Below are positions 10,892 to 14,469 of a stretch of DNA of 52,616 bases, in pieces. Both the position numbers and the translations under genes were made by a program. A model generated the notes under the pieces. That model was not told where the DNA came from. It worked only from the letters and a program-made list of their open reading frames with translations, and ran no database searches. The first letter of the stretch is position 1, and the number at the start of each line of letters is the position of its first letter. Location of the stretch: the NCBI GenBank assembly GCA_913051775.1, contig CAJXCL010000009.1:1-52616 (forward strand). The letters run 5' to 3'. This DNA comes from an uncultured Nitrospirota bacterium (GTDB lineage: Bacteria > Nitrospinota > Nitrospinia > CAJXCL01).

Positions 10892-11809
10892 ATGGTTTAT
10901 CGTTATCTTCTCCTTTCTTTACTCCCAATAATAGCTATAATTATTTATTTAAACGGTCAGAATTATGATCCGGGATTGTTAAACTTTCAAACCGACATCC
11001 CCTCCAATTCATTAGTTACTTCCTATCTTCCCCAAAAAAATCACACCTATCAGCGGGTAGGTCAAATCCGTCAATATACGGGGGAGAACCTTTATGAATA
11101 TATCAATGGTCATGCGGAATATTTCTTAGCGTTAGGATTTGTAAAACTTGCTGTGGCGGATTATTCATCGGAATCTTCTGAACAGAATAATTCTGAATTC
11201 GTGGTCGATATATATGATATGGGAAAAAGTAAAAATGCCTTTGGTATCTTAATGGATGAATCTGGAGAAAATGCGACTCCTGTCGAAGTGGGTTTTAGAG
11301 GCTTTCTTACTCAAAAAACATTAAACTTTATTAAAGGGCAGTACTATATAAAAATTAGCGCGTTCCATGATAATGCTCCACTTGTTAAATTTGCCGGGGG
11401 AATTGAAAAAAAGTTCGGTGATCTTCAAAACTCATTGCCGCAATTTCAGAAATTTCCCCGTAATGGAAGAATAGTAAATTCTATTAAATTTATTAAGGAA
11501 AATTATCACGGGCTTAGTTTTGTTAACAATGTATATGAACAAGGATATGAAATTAATGGAGAAAGGTTCTCGGCATTTTTGATTGAAGGCAATAATGATG
11601 AAATCAAGAAACTTTCAAAACAATATACTGAATTTTTTAAAGAAGACGGTATTGAATATCACATGATACAATATAAACAGCGAAATTATTACAAAGTTAT
11701 GGATCCCTTTGAAGGGGACTGGTTCTTAATTCCATTAAATAAAGAGCTCTTTGGTATTTATGGCTCTTTAAGCGACAAAGTTTTGAGAAAGTTTATAGAT
11801 GACCTCTAA
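10892..11809 (+). CDS. DUF6599 family exported protein
   Basis: This 305-residue protein has an N-terminal hydrophobic helix (about 5-20), so it is membrane-anchored or secreted with its body in the periplasm. The motif ENLYEYINGHAEYFLALGF (65-83) and the following VDIYDMGKSKNAFGI match DUF6599, whose function is unknown. No Cys-rich or catalytic motif is obvious. It overlaps the next gene (DUF362) by 11 bp and heads a three-gene cluster with a NapGH-type Fe-S membrane protein. This points to a periplasmic redox or maturation role, which is inference. The start lacks a clear ribosome site; the region before it is the ATTGACA repeat. Confidence 0.7.
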   Translation: MVYRYLLLSLLPIIAIIIYLNGQNYDPGLLNFQTDIPSNSLVTSYLPQKNHTYQRVGQIRQYTGENLYEYINGHAEYFLALGFVKLAVADYSSESSEQNNSEFVVDIYDMGKSKNAFGILMDESGENATPVEVGFRGFLTQKTLNFIKGQYYIKISAFHDNAPLVKFAGGIEKKFGDLQNSLPQFQKFPRNGRIVNSIKFIKENYHGLSFVNNVYEQGYEINGERFSAFLIEGNNDEIKKLSKQYTEFFKEDGIEYHMIQYKQRNYYKVMDPFEGDWFLIPLNKELFGIYGSLSDKVLRKFIDDL

Positions 11810-12791
11810 CTACAACAAAAAAGAACCGGCATTAGATCGGAGACAATTTATAAAAAAATCGGCTATAACCTGCGGAGTTGCGCTAAGTGCCGGCGCATGG
11901 GGTTATCTCTTTTATAGTAAAGAACCCGTCAGGAAAACCAAAAGCAAAGTTTACACATTTAAAGATTTTCGAGTTCCTGTTTCCAACGTATATGCAAAAA
12001 TGACTGTTGCGAGTGGAACAGATATGGGAAAGATGCTGCGGGCGTCAGTTGAAAAACTTGGAGGAATCACAAAGTTTATTCACCCGGGAGATAAAGTCCT
12101 GATAAAGCCAAATGTTGGCTGGGACCGTCAGCCGGAACAGGCGGCAAACACCAACCCTGAGCTGGTATCCGCTGTCGTTAAATTATGCAGAGAAGCAAAA
12201 GCCTCTGAAATCCTGGTTACAGATGTGTCAGTTAATGACTCGTACCGGTGCTTTGCCAGATCAGGTATTGAAAATGCGGTGCTGCAATCAGGGGGAAAAA
12301 TTCTTTTTACCAGTGAAAGCGATTTTGTGCATACTGATATGAAAGGAGAATTACTCAAAATATGGCCTGTCTCAAAATTTTATCACGAAGCCGATAAAGT
12401 GATTAATGTTCCCATAGTCAAAAACCATTCATTAAGCAAATGTACCCTTGCAATGAAAAACTGGTACGGAGTATTAGGGGGACCACGCAACCAATTGCAC
12501 CAGGACATTAATACTTCTATTGTGGACCTTGCCCAGGCAGTTCGTCCTACTTTGACTATTATGGATGCCACTAGAGTTTTGAAGAAAAACGGACCAACAG
12601 GGGGGAACCTCTCTGACGTCTCTATAGAAAATACAATCATAGCAGGACTCGATGAAGTAGCTATTGATTCATACTCTTTGCAATTTCTTGATTTAAAAAA
12701 GGAAGATGTCCCATATATCAAGCTTGCTGAAAAGCGTGGCCTGGGAACGTCCGACTGGCGCTCAATTAATACGAAAAAGATTAAAGTTTAA
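11799..12791 (+). CDS. DUF362 protein with Tat signal
   Basis: A twin-arginine signal DRRQFIKKSAITCGVALSAG (13-32) shows export in folded form. The body is DUF362: LIKPNVGW (101-108), the NTNPELVSAVVKLC stretch, VPIVKNH (204-210), MKNWYGVLGG (219-228). DUF362 proteins are uncharacterised and often neighbour ferredoxins. This one has no CxxC-type cluster motif of its own, so any electrons would come from a partner. The Tat signal implies that a cofactor or complex assembles before export. It overlaps the DUF6599 gene and lies 169 bp before the NapGH fusion. Confidence 0.82.
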   Translation: MTSNYNKKEPALDRRQFIKKSAITCGVALSAGAWGYLFYSKEPVRKTKSKVYTFKDFRVPVSNVYAKMTVASGTDMGKMLRASVEKLGGITKFIHPGDKVLIKPNVGWDRQPEQAANTNPELVSAVVKLCREAKASEILVTDVSVNDSYRCFARSGIENAVLQSGGKILFTSESDFVHTDMKGELLKIWPVSKFYHEADKVINVPIVKNHSLSKCTLAMKNWYGVLGGPRNQLHQDINTSIVDLAQAVRPTLTIMDATRVLKKNGPTGGNLSDVSIENTIIAGLDEVAIDSYSLQFLDLKKEDVPYIKLAEKRGLGTSDWRSINTKKIKV

Positions 12792-12804
12792 TAACTACAA
12801 ATGA

Positions 12805-12888
12805 GAGCCTCGTAGAGGCGAAAGATGATAACTGGGGCGTAAGCCCCTGGTAAAAGGAAGTAAAAAAGTCAGCCCTGTAGGGGCGAAA
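12805..12888. repeat. Three small palindromes of the GCCCTGTAGGGGC type
   Basis: GCCTC-GTA-GAGGC (12807-12819), GGGGC-GTAA-GCCCC (12834-12847) and GCCCT-GTA-GGGGC (12872-12884). The first and third share the frame AGCC(C/T)(C/T)GTAGxGGCGAAAGA. They lie between DUF362 and the NapGH fusion and are not followed by T-runs. Short palindromes of this form are dispersed in many bacterial genomes. Confidence 0.65.
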
Positions 12889-12960
12889 GAAAAACGGTTG
12901 GCATGGATAAACTCGTTTGTTCATGCAATAGAAATTTGGAACTAAATCAGGGAAGAAATA

Positions 12961-14469
12961 GTGACATTACAGAATTTAAGAAGAATTTACTCGGTTTTCT
13001 TTTTCGCGCTTTTTGTATATTTGCTGGTCATTACCGACTTCAGAAACTTAAAGGGGTATGAAGTTTCTTTATTTCTTGAAATCAATCCACTTGTTTCTAT
13101 CTTTTCGTTCTTTACCAGTGGGACTATTTATAAAGGGCTGATCCTTTCTTTATTAATAATTATCCCAACCTTATTTCTCGGCCGTTTTTTCTGTTCCTGG
13201 ATCTGTCCTCTCGGGATTCTAAATCAATGGATCAGCTTCTTTTTAAATAAGAAAGAAACATCGGAAAATCAGGAAAAAAACGAATATCGTAAAATGTTTC
13301 GTTTCAAATATTATATCCTTGTAATTTTTGCCGTTCTTGCTGTCTCCGGGACACTGCAAATCGGTCTCCTTGATCCGATTGCGTTTATATCAAGGGCTTT
13401 CATTGTTTCCGGTTTTCCAGCTCTGTATAACTGGGGGGAACTTATTTACTTGAAACAACCTGTTTTTCAGGGTGGGATACTTATTACGCTGCTGTTTTTA
13501 ACTGTTCTCTTTGCAAACCGCTTTATAACCCGATTCTGGTGTAGAGTACTATGTCCTCTTGGCGCTTTGTTAGGGATTATGTCTTTTGGTTCCATCATGC
13601 GGATCAGGCGCAATATAGAGAAATGTACAGACTGTAAAAAATGCCTGCTACATTGCCAGGGTGGGTGCGACCCCCATTCCAATCTCAGAGTTAATGAATG
13701 CCATGTTTGCATGAACTGCATTGCATCTTGTCCTGAGGATGCCCTCCATTATGGCTTCGCTGAGACACGGAGTTCCATCCATCAGTCTTTTGATATCAGC
13801 CGCCGCCGTCTTCTCGAAACTGGTGTTGCCGCGTTTGTATTATTTCCTATGATGAAGTCTTCTCTAACTGGAGAAAATCAAGCGTTAGCCGATGTTATAC
13901 GGCCACCTGGAGCCCTCACGGAAAAAGATTTTCTTCGACGTTGTATTAAATGTTCCGAGTGCATGCGAGTTTGTCCGACCAATGTATTACAACCCGCTCT
14001 GCTTGAAGGTGGTTTTGAAGGAATCTGGGACCCACTCTTGATAAACAAAATCGGATACTGTGAATACAACTGTGTTTTATGTGGTCAGGTATGTCCCACA
14101 GGGGCTATTCGTAATATATCAGTTGAGGAAAAGATAGGAAAAAAACCTTACAAAAACCCGATAAAGATTGGAACGGCTTTTTTTAACAGAGGACGTTGTC
14201 TGCCGTGGGCTATGAACAGAACATGTATTGTATGCGAAGAAGTATGCCCAACGTCTCCAAAAGCTATCTGGTTTCGGAAAGAAGAAGTCGTAACAAGAGA
14301 AGGGAAAGTAAAAAAAGTTAAACGGCCTTACCTGGATCCGGACCTATGCATAGGTTGTGGAATATGTGAAAACAAATGCCCTGTCCTTGATAAACCCGCT
14401 ATCCGCGTCTCTTCAGTCGGCGAAACCCGCTCAAAAACCAATCAAATGGTACTAACTGCAAATAAATAA
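12961..14469 (+). CDS. NapH-NapG-like fused ferredoxin membrane protein with internal Tat motif
   Basis: This is a 502-residue fusion. The N-terminal half is NapH-like, with four hydrophobic segments (about 9-24, 57-73, 116-133, 172-187) and the two CxxxCP motifs CSWICP (78-83) and CRVLCP (194-199). Two 4Fe-4S clusters follow (Cys 222-257). Then comes SRRRLLETGVAAFVLFP (280-296), a twin-arginine motif plus hydrophobic stretch, followed by NapG-like Fe-S motifs near 328-339, 371-378, 422-429 and 463-473. NapH and NapG are normally separate proteins that pass electrons from quinol to periplasmic reductases. The GTG start follows AGGGAAG. Its neighbours are DUF362 and DUF6599 and no reductase is present, so the electron acceptor is unknown. 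Confidence 0.88.
   Translation: MTLQNLRRIYSVFFFALFVYLLVITDFRNLKGYEVSLFLEINPLVSIFSFFTSGTIYKGLILSLLIIIPTLFLGRFFCSWICPLGILNQWISFFLNKKETSENQEKNEYRKMFRFKYYILVIFAVLAVSGTLQIGLLDPIAFISRAFIVSGFPALYNWGELIYLKQPVFQGGILITLLFLTVLFANRFITRFWCRVLCPLGALLGIMSFGSIMRIRRNIEKCTDCKKCLLHCQGGCDPHSNLRVNECHVCMNCIASCPEDALHYGFAETRSSIHQSFDISRRRLLETGVAAFVLFPMMKSSLTGENQALADVIRPPGALTEKDFLRRCIKCSECMRVCPTNVLQPALLEGGFEGIWDPLLINKIGYCEYNCVLCGQVCPTGAIRNISVEEKIGKKPYKNPIKIGTAFFNRGRCLPWAMNRTCIVCEEVCPTSPKAIWFRKEEVVTREGKVKKVKRPYLDPDLCIGCGICENKCPVLDKPAIRVSSVGETRSKTNQMVLTANK

Follow-up and report, generated by a model that had tools for sequence, protein, structure and literature searches.

The window, meaning the whole analysed stretch of 52,616 nucleotides, contains a gene of 502 codons with a GTG start (positions 12961–14469, forward strand, as are all other window features given below). 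It encodes a fusion of NapH-like and NapG-like parts, that is, a polytopic polyferredoxin (PFD). The opposite strand of the same interval is full of stop codons, and the 502-codon frame is the sole long one. Just upstream lies a gene for a DUF362 protein of 330 amino acids with a LarA-like predicted fold (11799–12791), which carries an N-terminal Tat signal (DRRQFIKK, with R14-R15 at 11838–11843; twin arginine in 137/137 of the DUF362 partners compared). The same cassette holds a gene for a DUF6599 protein of 305 amino acids with one hydrophobic N-terminal segment (10892–11809). The intergenic region between the DUF362 gene and the fusion (12792–12960) includes a pair of G-rich sequences that resemble each other, ggggcgtaagcccc and gccctgtaggggc, and are possible hairpins.

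Pfam searches placed Fer4_5 in the NapH part of the fusion and Fer4 families across the rest. The top NCBIfam matches were to NapG (94 bits over residues 277–485) and NapH/MauN (79 bits over residues 6–264), both far under the curated cut-offs of 269 and 213 bits, respectively. As a single fused chain that scores 94 of 269 bits for NapG and 71 of 234 bits for NapH, the protein falls outside both equivalogs. A PDB sequence search with the fusion returned generic ferredoxin domains only.

Four transmembrane helices are predicted in the NapH part, with approximate dG values that were calculated without the prediction server and lie within the published range of the family: TM1 (residues 6–28, 12976–13044, dG −2.2), TM2 (residues 56–78, 13126–13194, −2.1), TM3 (residues 115–137, 13303–13371, −1.8) and TM4 (residues 171–193, 13471–13539, −1.3). 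All four values are clearly negative and confirm the NapH-type helices proposed in the first-pass annotation. The motif RRRLLE behind S280 and the hydrophobic stretch that had been noted after it are likewise both present; the segment itself, the putative TM5 and Tat-recognised segment (residues 281–299, 13801–13857), is weak, with a predicted dG of +1.9. Lys plus Arg counts amount to 6/36 and 12/90 in the cytoplasmic loops and 0/23 and 2/33 in the periplasmic loops, and a predicted topology with the N-terminus inside, five helices and the C-terminus outside agrees with the positive-inside rule. Residues 281–300 form a helix in the AlphaFold2 model of the fusion. The model was dropped as a topology argument, its C-terminal half being poor (pLDDT mostly 26–65); a Foldseek search with it returned nothing below E 0.001.

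The cluster-binding residues are conserved throughout the fusion, with 28 cysteines each kept in at least 71 of 72–73 homologues, 12 of them before TM5 and 16 after. Two cytoplasmic-side [4Fe-4S] motifs (Cys 222–257, 13624–13731) are recognised by Pfam Fer4 families. A third site would be assembled from C78-x3-C82-P (13192–13206; Cys in 72/72) and C194-x3-C198-P (13540–13554; Cys in 73/73), and the invariance of both pairs points to three cytoplasmic-side clusters, where two had been counted on first reading. Behind TM5, the C-terminal domain starts with I-R-P-P-G (residues 313–317, 13897–13911), of which RPPG is invariant (168/168). The NapG-like domain that follows is predicted to be periplasmic and has 16 conserved cysteines (residues 328–473, 13942–14379), corresponding to four [4Fe-4S] sites.

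The twin arginine R281-R282 (13801–13806) was compared across two sets of fusions. The close set comprises 80 loci at 44–69% identity from one genome-collection scan, 74 of them complete with the window's own counted, and its record titles name Nitrospirae, Nitrospinota, Magnetococcales, Gammaproteobacteria, Myxococcales, Deltaproteobacteria and Acidobacteria. The distant set adds 94 more, mostly more distant fusions, from profile searches of sampled phyla centred on one Acidobacteria, one Myxococcales and one Nitrospiraceae genome (44/149, 22/141 and 40/148 matching genomes, respectively); a few of these matches span just half of the protein. The twin arginine is present in 73/74 close fusions, with Lys-Arg in the remaining one, and in 90/94 distant fusions, with Lys-Arg in three and a twin arginine shifted by one residue in one. 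The first-pass annotation had named loss of this motif among homologues as the observation that would speak against its reading; over several phyla the pair is kept in 163/168 fusions, and the second arginine is never missing (168/168). When the comparison was limited to 34 representatives with less than 60% identity, the twin arginine was found in 31 and Lys-Arg in the others. Lys-Arg can function in Tat signals. The four Lys-Arg fusions (L026, L103, L117 and L128) keep the second arginine, and TatC is found in all four genomes.

The features around the motif are similarly constant. The predicted dG of TM5 has a median of +2.1 among homologues and is above zero in 69/70, versus a median of −2.8 for TM1, and every homologue has at least two Lys or Arg residues within the segment equivalent to 297–317. 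Of the 35 open reading frames of the window (14,274 residues), only two contain a Tat-like motif with an uncharged run behind it, namely the fusion and, at its N-terminus, the DUF362 protein; when the linker of the fusion (residues 258–327) was shuffled, the combination arose in 0.6% of trials. TatC is encoded in the genome from which the window derives and in 25/25 and 49/50 other fusion-bearing genomes, giving a total of 75/76; the one genome with no TatC match is possibly incomplete.

These features are those of a family already described. Tooke et al. 2017 found the polytopic polyferredoxins by TATFIND plus TMHMM and described them as NapH-NapG fusions with five helices, 3+4 clusters and a twin arginine before TM5 (PMC5449189). 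For the member from MLMS-1 (Q1NSB0), reporter export requires Tat and the twin arginine, the protein integrates into the membrane even when Tat is absent, and weak hydrophobicity together with positive charges makes Sec release TM5 (PMC5449189). Every feature of the family that can be checked by sequence was found here: an even number of helices before the twin arginine and one helix directly after it, a conserved twin arginine, seven [4Fe-4S] sites (three before TM5 and four after), and a TM5 whose predicted dG is above zero and which is followed by positive charges. Dual targeting is settled knowledge for the polyferredoxin family, published in 2017, and the suggestion in the first-pass annotation of a dual Sec/Tat substrate is thus supported by conservation of the twin arginine and the published MLMS-1 results. 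For the present protein we infer both Tat dependence and Tat-independent insertion by transfer from the MLMS-1 member. What is new here is the conservation test over 168 fusions in several phyla, plus one natural split described below.

Very probably, then, the fusion is a five-helix polyferredoxin targeted by both Sec and Tat, a wire of seven clusters. TM1–4 would be inserted by Sec during translation, and helix 5 would be released by Sec because it is weakly hydrophobic with positive charges behind. The clusters would be loaded in the cytoplasm, after which R281-R282 would be recognised by Tat and the folded C-terminal domain moved to the periplasm, with helix 5 staying as its anchor. The result would be seven clusters in series, leading from the quinone-linked NapH part to the periplasm, where the main partner would be the product of the neighbouring upstream gene, the DUF362 protein, which is also a predicted Tat substrate. 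The invariant twin arginine of that partner lends independent support to a periplasmic C-terminal domain of the fusion.

A twin arginine in this position also fits the positive-inside rule on the loop counts given above, and might be a mere topology signal, with helix 5 and the C-terminal domain inserted by Sec and the clusters added later in the periplasm. Such a signal needs charge and not an exact position, whereas the second arginine is invariant and the first is replaced by Lys only, bar the single motif shifted by one residue. As helix 5 is also predicted to insert poorly and the MLMS-1 member requires Tat and the twin arginine, we regard this route as very unlikely. Dual targeting could alternatively be followed by a signal peptidase cut after helix 5 (ALA at 308–310), which would free a NapG-like carrier. 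The fusion does have Q-A-L-A-D at 307–311, but A-x-A after helix 5 occurs in only 14/74 homologues, the window's own among them, and the RPPG right behind it is invariant; we consider cleavage highly improbable. That the C-terminal domain stays cytoplasmic, with residues 281–299 in or on the inner membrane face, would suit the low hydrophobicity of this segment and the most common location of [4Fe-4S] ferredoxin domains, but is scarcely credible given the DUF362 partner's own Tat signal, the N-terminal Tat signal of a split relative and the co-occurrence with TatC.

The split relative (genome G145, locus L092, 954–2655) has the module as two overlapping genes. Its NapH-like reading frame stops shortly past the last cytoplasmic cluster, and the second, NapG-like frame has its own ATG at 1912 and begins MKRLLDNALMRWLSNFIRPPQDKRLDLRRRSLITAGLAG, so that the segment equivalent to residues 278–300 of the fusion is the putative N-terminal Tat signal of the NapG-like half. 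In the tree (midpoint root, quick search, long branch) L092 nests beside fusions with SH-aLRT values of 91 and 88, and by this nesting the arrangement reads as a fission after fusion, in one event. A sequencing or assembly frameshift is possible, but the second frame starts with an N-terminal extension of its own, about 34 residues long. A second split was sought in the family of G145, where the sequence of G489 is N-masked at this place. The case bears on a question left open by Tooke et al., namely whether the fused or the separate genes came first (PMC5449189).

Neighbouring genes were counted in 96 distant loci and in those 61 close loci whose upstream sequence was long enough. A gene for a Tat-signalled DUF362 protein lies just upstream of the fusion in 56/61 of the close loci and 90/96 of the distant ones, and the DUF362-fusion pair is a stable unit. 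In the close group two further genes bring the cassette to four: the DUF6599 gene (50/61) and one for a Tat-signalled aldo/keto reductase whose C-terminus bears an Fe-S motif (40/61). Within about 2 kb of the fusion, only 5/96 of the distant loci have the reductase. In the genome from which the window derives, the reductase is encoded away from the cassette in two Tat-signalled copies (G000:C39, L085 1492–2685, and G000:C76, L086 1013–2260, both on the reverse strand). For enzymes with an NAD(P)H-type fold, such as these Fe-S aldo/keto reductases, export to the periplasm is odd. The literature collection searched has no paper naming DUF362 together with polyferredoxin, twin-arginine or keto reductase, and none naming DUF6599; the text of Tooke et al. 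2017 has zero occurrences of DUF362 (PMC5449189). The near-constant Tat-exported DUF362 partner of the fusion and its link to nickel-pincer genes, described below, appear to be unreported.

The model of the DUF362 partner has a pLDDT of 94.9 and was used to search for structural homologues. Below E 0.001 there were 19 PDB matches. One of them (4nar) is a Thermotoga protein without a name, and the other 18 are LarA-like enzymes or nickel-pincer racemases of the LarA type; matches to other folds all lay above E 0.003. The Foldseek matches to LarA have E values of 1e-6 to 5e-5 and a probability of 1.00, with TM-scores of only 0.38–0.49. DUF362 and DUF2088/LarA belong to a common Pfam clan, CL0471 (PMC11770544). 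Pfam returned DUF362 only for the partner, which falls outside Lar_N (PF09861), and conserved cysteines were not found in it. A candidate nickel-pincer site is H210-x9-K220-x13-H234 (12426–12500), each residue of which is conserved in 143/143 or 143/144 sequences. In LarA Sp (185/195/211), a catalytic His precedes the cofactor-binding Lys by ten residues, and the His that serves as nickel ligand follows this Lys by sixteen (PMC12611868), and the LarA of the window's own genome has the same His/Lys/His spacing. An hhalign comparison of DUF362 with LarA places H210 and K220 on the LarA His and Lys, in an alignment that is not significant (E 0.056, probability about 1%).

The genes for the nickel-pincer nucleotide (NPN) cofactor are found with the fusion in several relatives. 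Four Magnetococcales loci have larC-larB-larE directly behind it (L050, 5875–8775; L052, 7524–10301; L061, 7524–10394; L066, 7521–10356), giving the order reductase, DUF6599, DUF362, fusion, LarC, LarB and LarE on one strand. In L050, L061 and L066 the stop codon of the fusion and the start codon of LarC appear to overlap, and the identity of LarE and LarB was confirmed by NCBIfam equivalogs. Of three gammaproteobacterial loci, L047 and L039 have LarC directly after the fusion, and L038, from Chromatiaceae, has LarE there. LarA is absent from every fetched fusion locus, and the genomes of L052 and L061 gave no Lar_N match. Among 32 fusion-bearing genomes, LarC is present in 30 and LarA scores above cut-off in 10, the window's own genome being included in both counts. 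In the literature, about 9% of genomes have LarA plus the pathway and about 15% have larB/E/C and no larA (PMC11796402). Set against the resulting 24%, the excess of LarC (30/32) is large, with P about 1e-16, uncorrected for kinship. The genome of the window has LarA, with its lar genes located away from the fusion gene, so the nickel-pincer case rests on relatives.

Chances appear evenly balanced that the DUF362 partner is one of the non-LarA NPN proteins being sought, a Tat-exported periplasmic redox enzyme wired via the fusion to the quinone pool; we place them there because of the LarC excess, the larCBE operons without larA, the LarA-type fold and the invariant His-x9-Lys-x13-His. The enzyme would take hydride from, or give hydride to, a hydroxy acid-like substrate, and its electrons would be exchanged with the quinone pool through the fusion, making it a respiratory nickel-pincer dehydrogenase or reductase. 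We infer both the direction and the purpose of electron flow along the fusion. It is also quite conceivable, at somewhat less than an even chance, that the fusion acts as a quinol dehydrogenase and supplies electrons to an ordinary reductase in the periplasm, for example the cassette's Fe-S aldo/keto reductase, with the DUF362 protein as a nickel-free assembly or structural factor. The reductase gene in 40/61 close loci, its two Tat-signalled copies elsewhere in the window's own genome and the precedent of NapGH favour this arrangement, which is compatible with dual targeting. However, the constant partner is the DUF362 protein and not the reductase, rare as it is in distant loci, and the LarA-type fold matches together with the larCBE operon point to catalysis. 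For the genomes that make the cofactor without LarA (about 15%; PMC11796402), the DUF362-PFD module is a concrete candidate user. If the nickel-pincer assignment is true, the use of this cofactor, known in racemases and epimerases, would extend to net redox reactions coupled to respiration.

The closest comparison is with the MLMS-1 protein Q1NSB0, which is likewise a NapH-NapG fusion with five helices and 3+4 clusters, a twin arginine immediately ahead of a TM5 of low hydrophobicity, and positive charges after that helix. Kinship was judged by these features alone, and TM5 comes earlier here (about residues 281–299 versus 338–359). NapH and NapG, the quinol dehydrogenase subunits, have the same domain content as a gene pair, but the present protein is one chain rather than two and no nap genes were found adjoining it. 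The actinobacterial Rieske protein Sco2149 resembles it in having Sec-inserted first helices and a folded last domain moved by Tat, and differs in being non-homologous, with three helices and a Rieske cluster; the likeness drawn in the first-pass annotation is correct and matches the published comparison, in which the polyferredoxin family is treated together with Rieske (PMC5449189). LarA shares with the DUF362 partner a His-x9-Lys in the same register. The partner differs from LarA in a Lys-to-His spacing of 14 versus 16, which puts H234 two residues off, in having no visible counterpart of the first catalytic His, in showing no significant sequence similarity, and in being a predicted Tat export paired with an Fe-S wire. 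In some loci the cofactor genes share an operon with the DUF362 partner.
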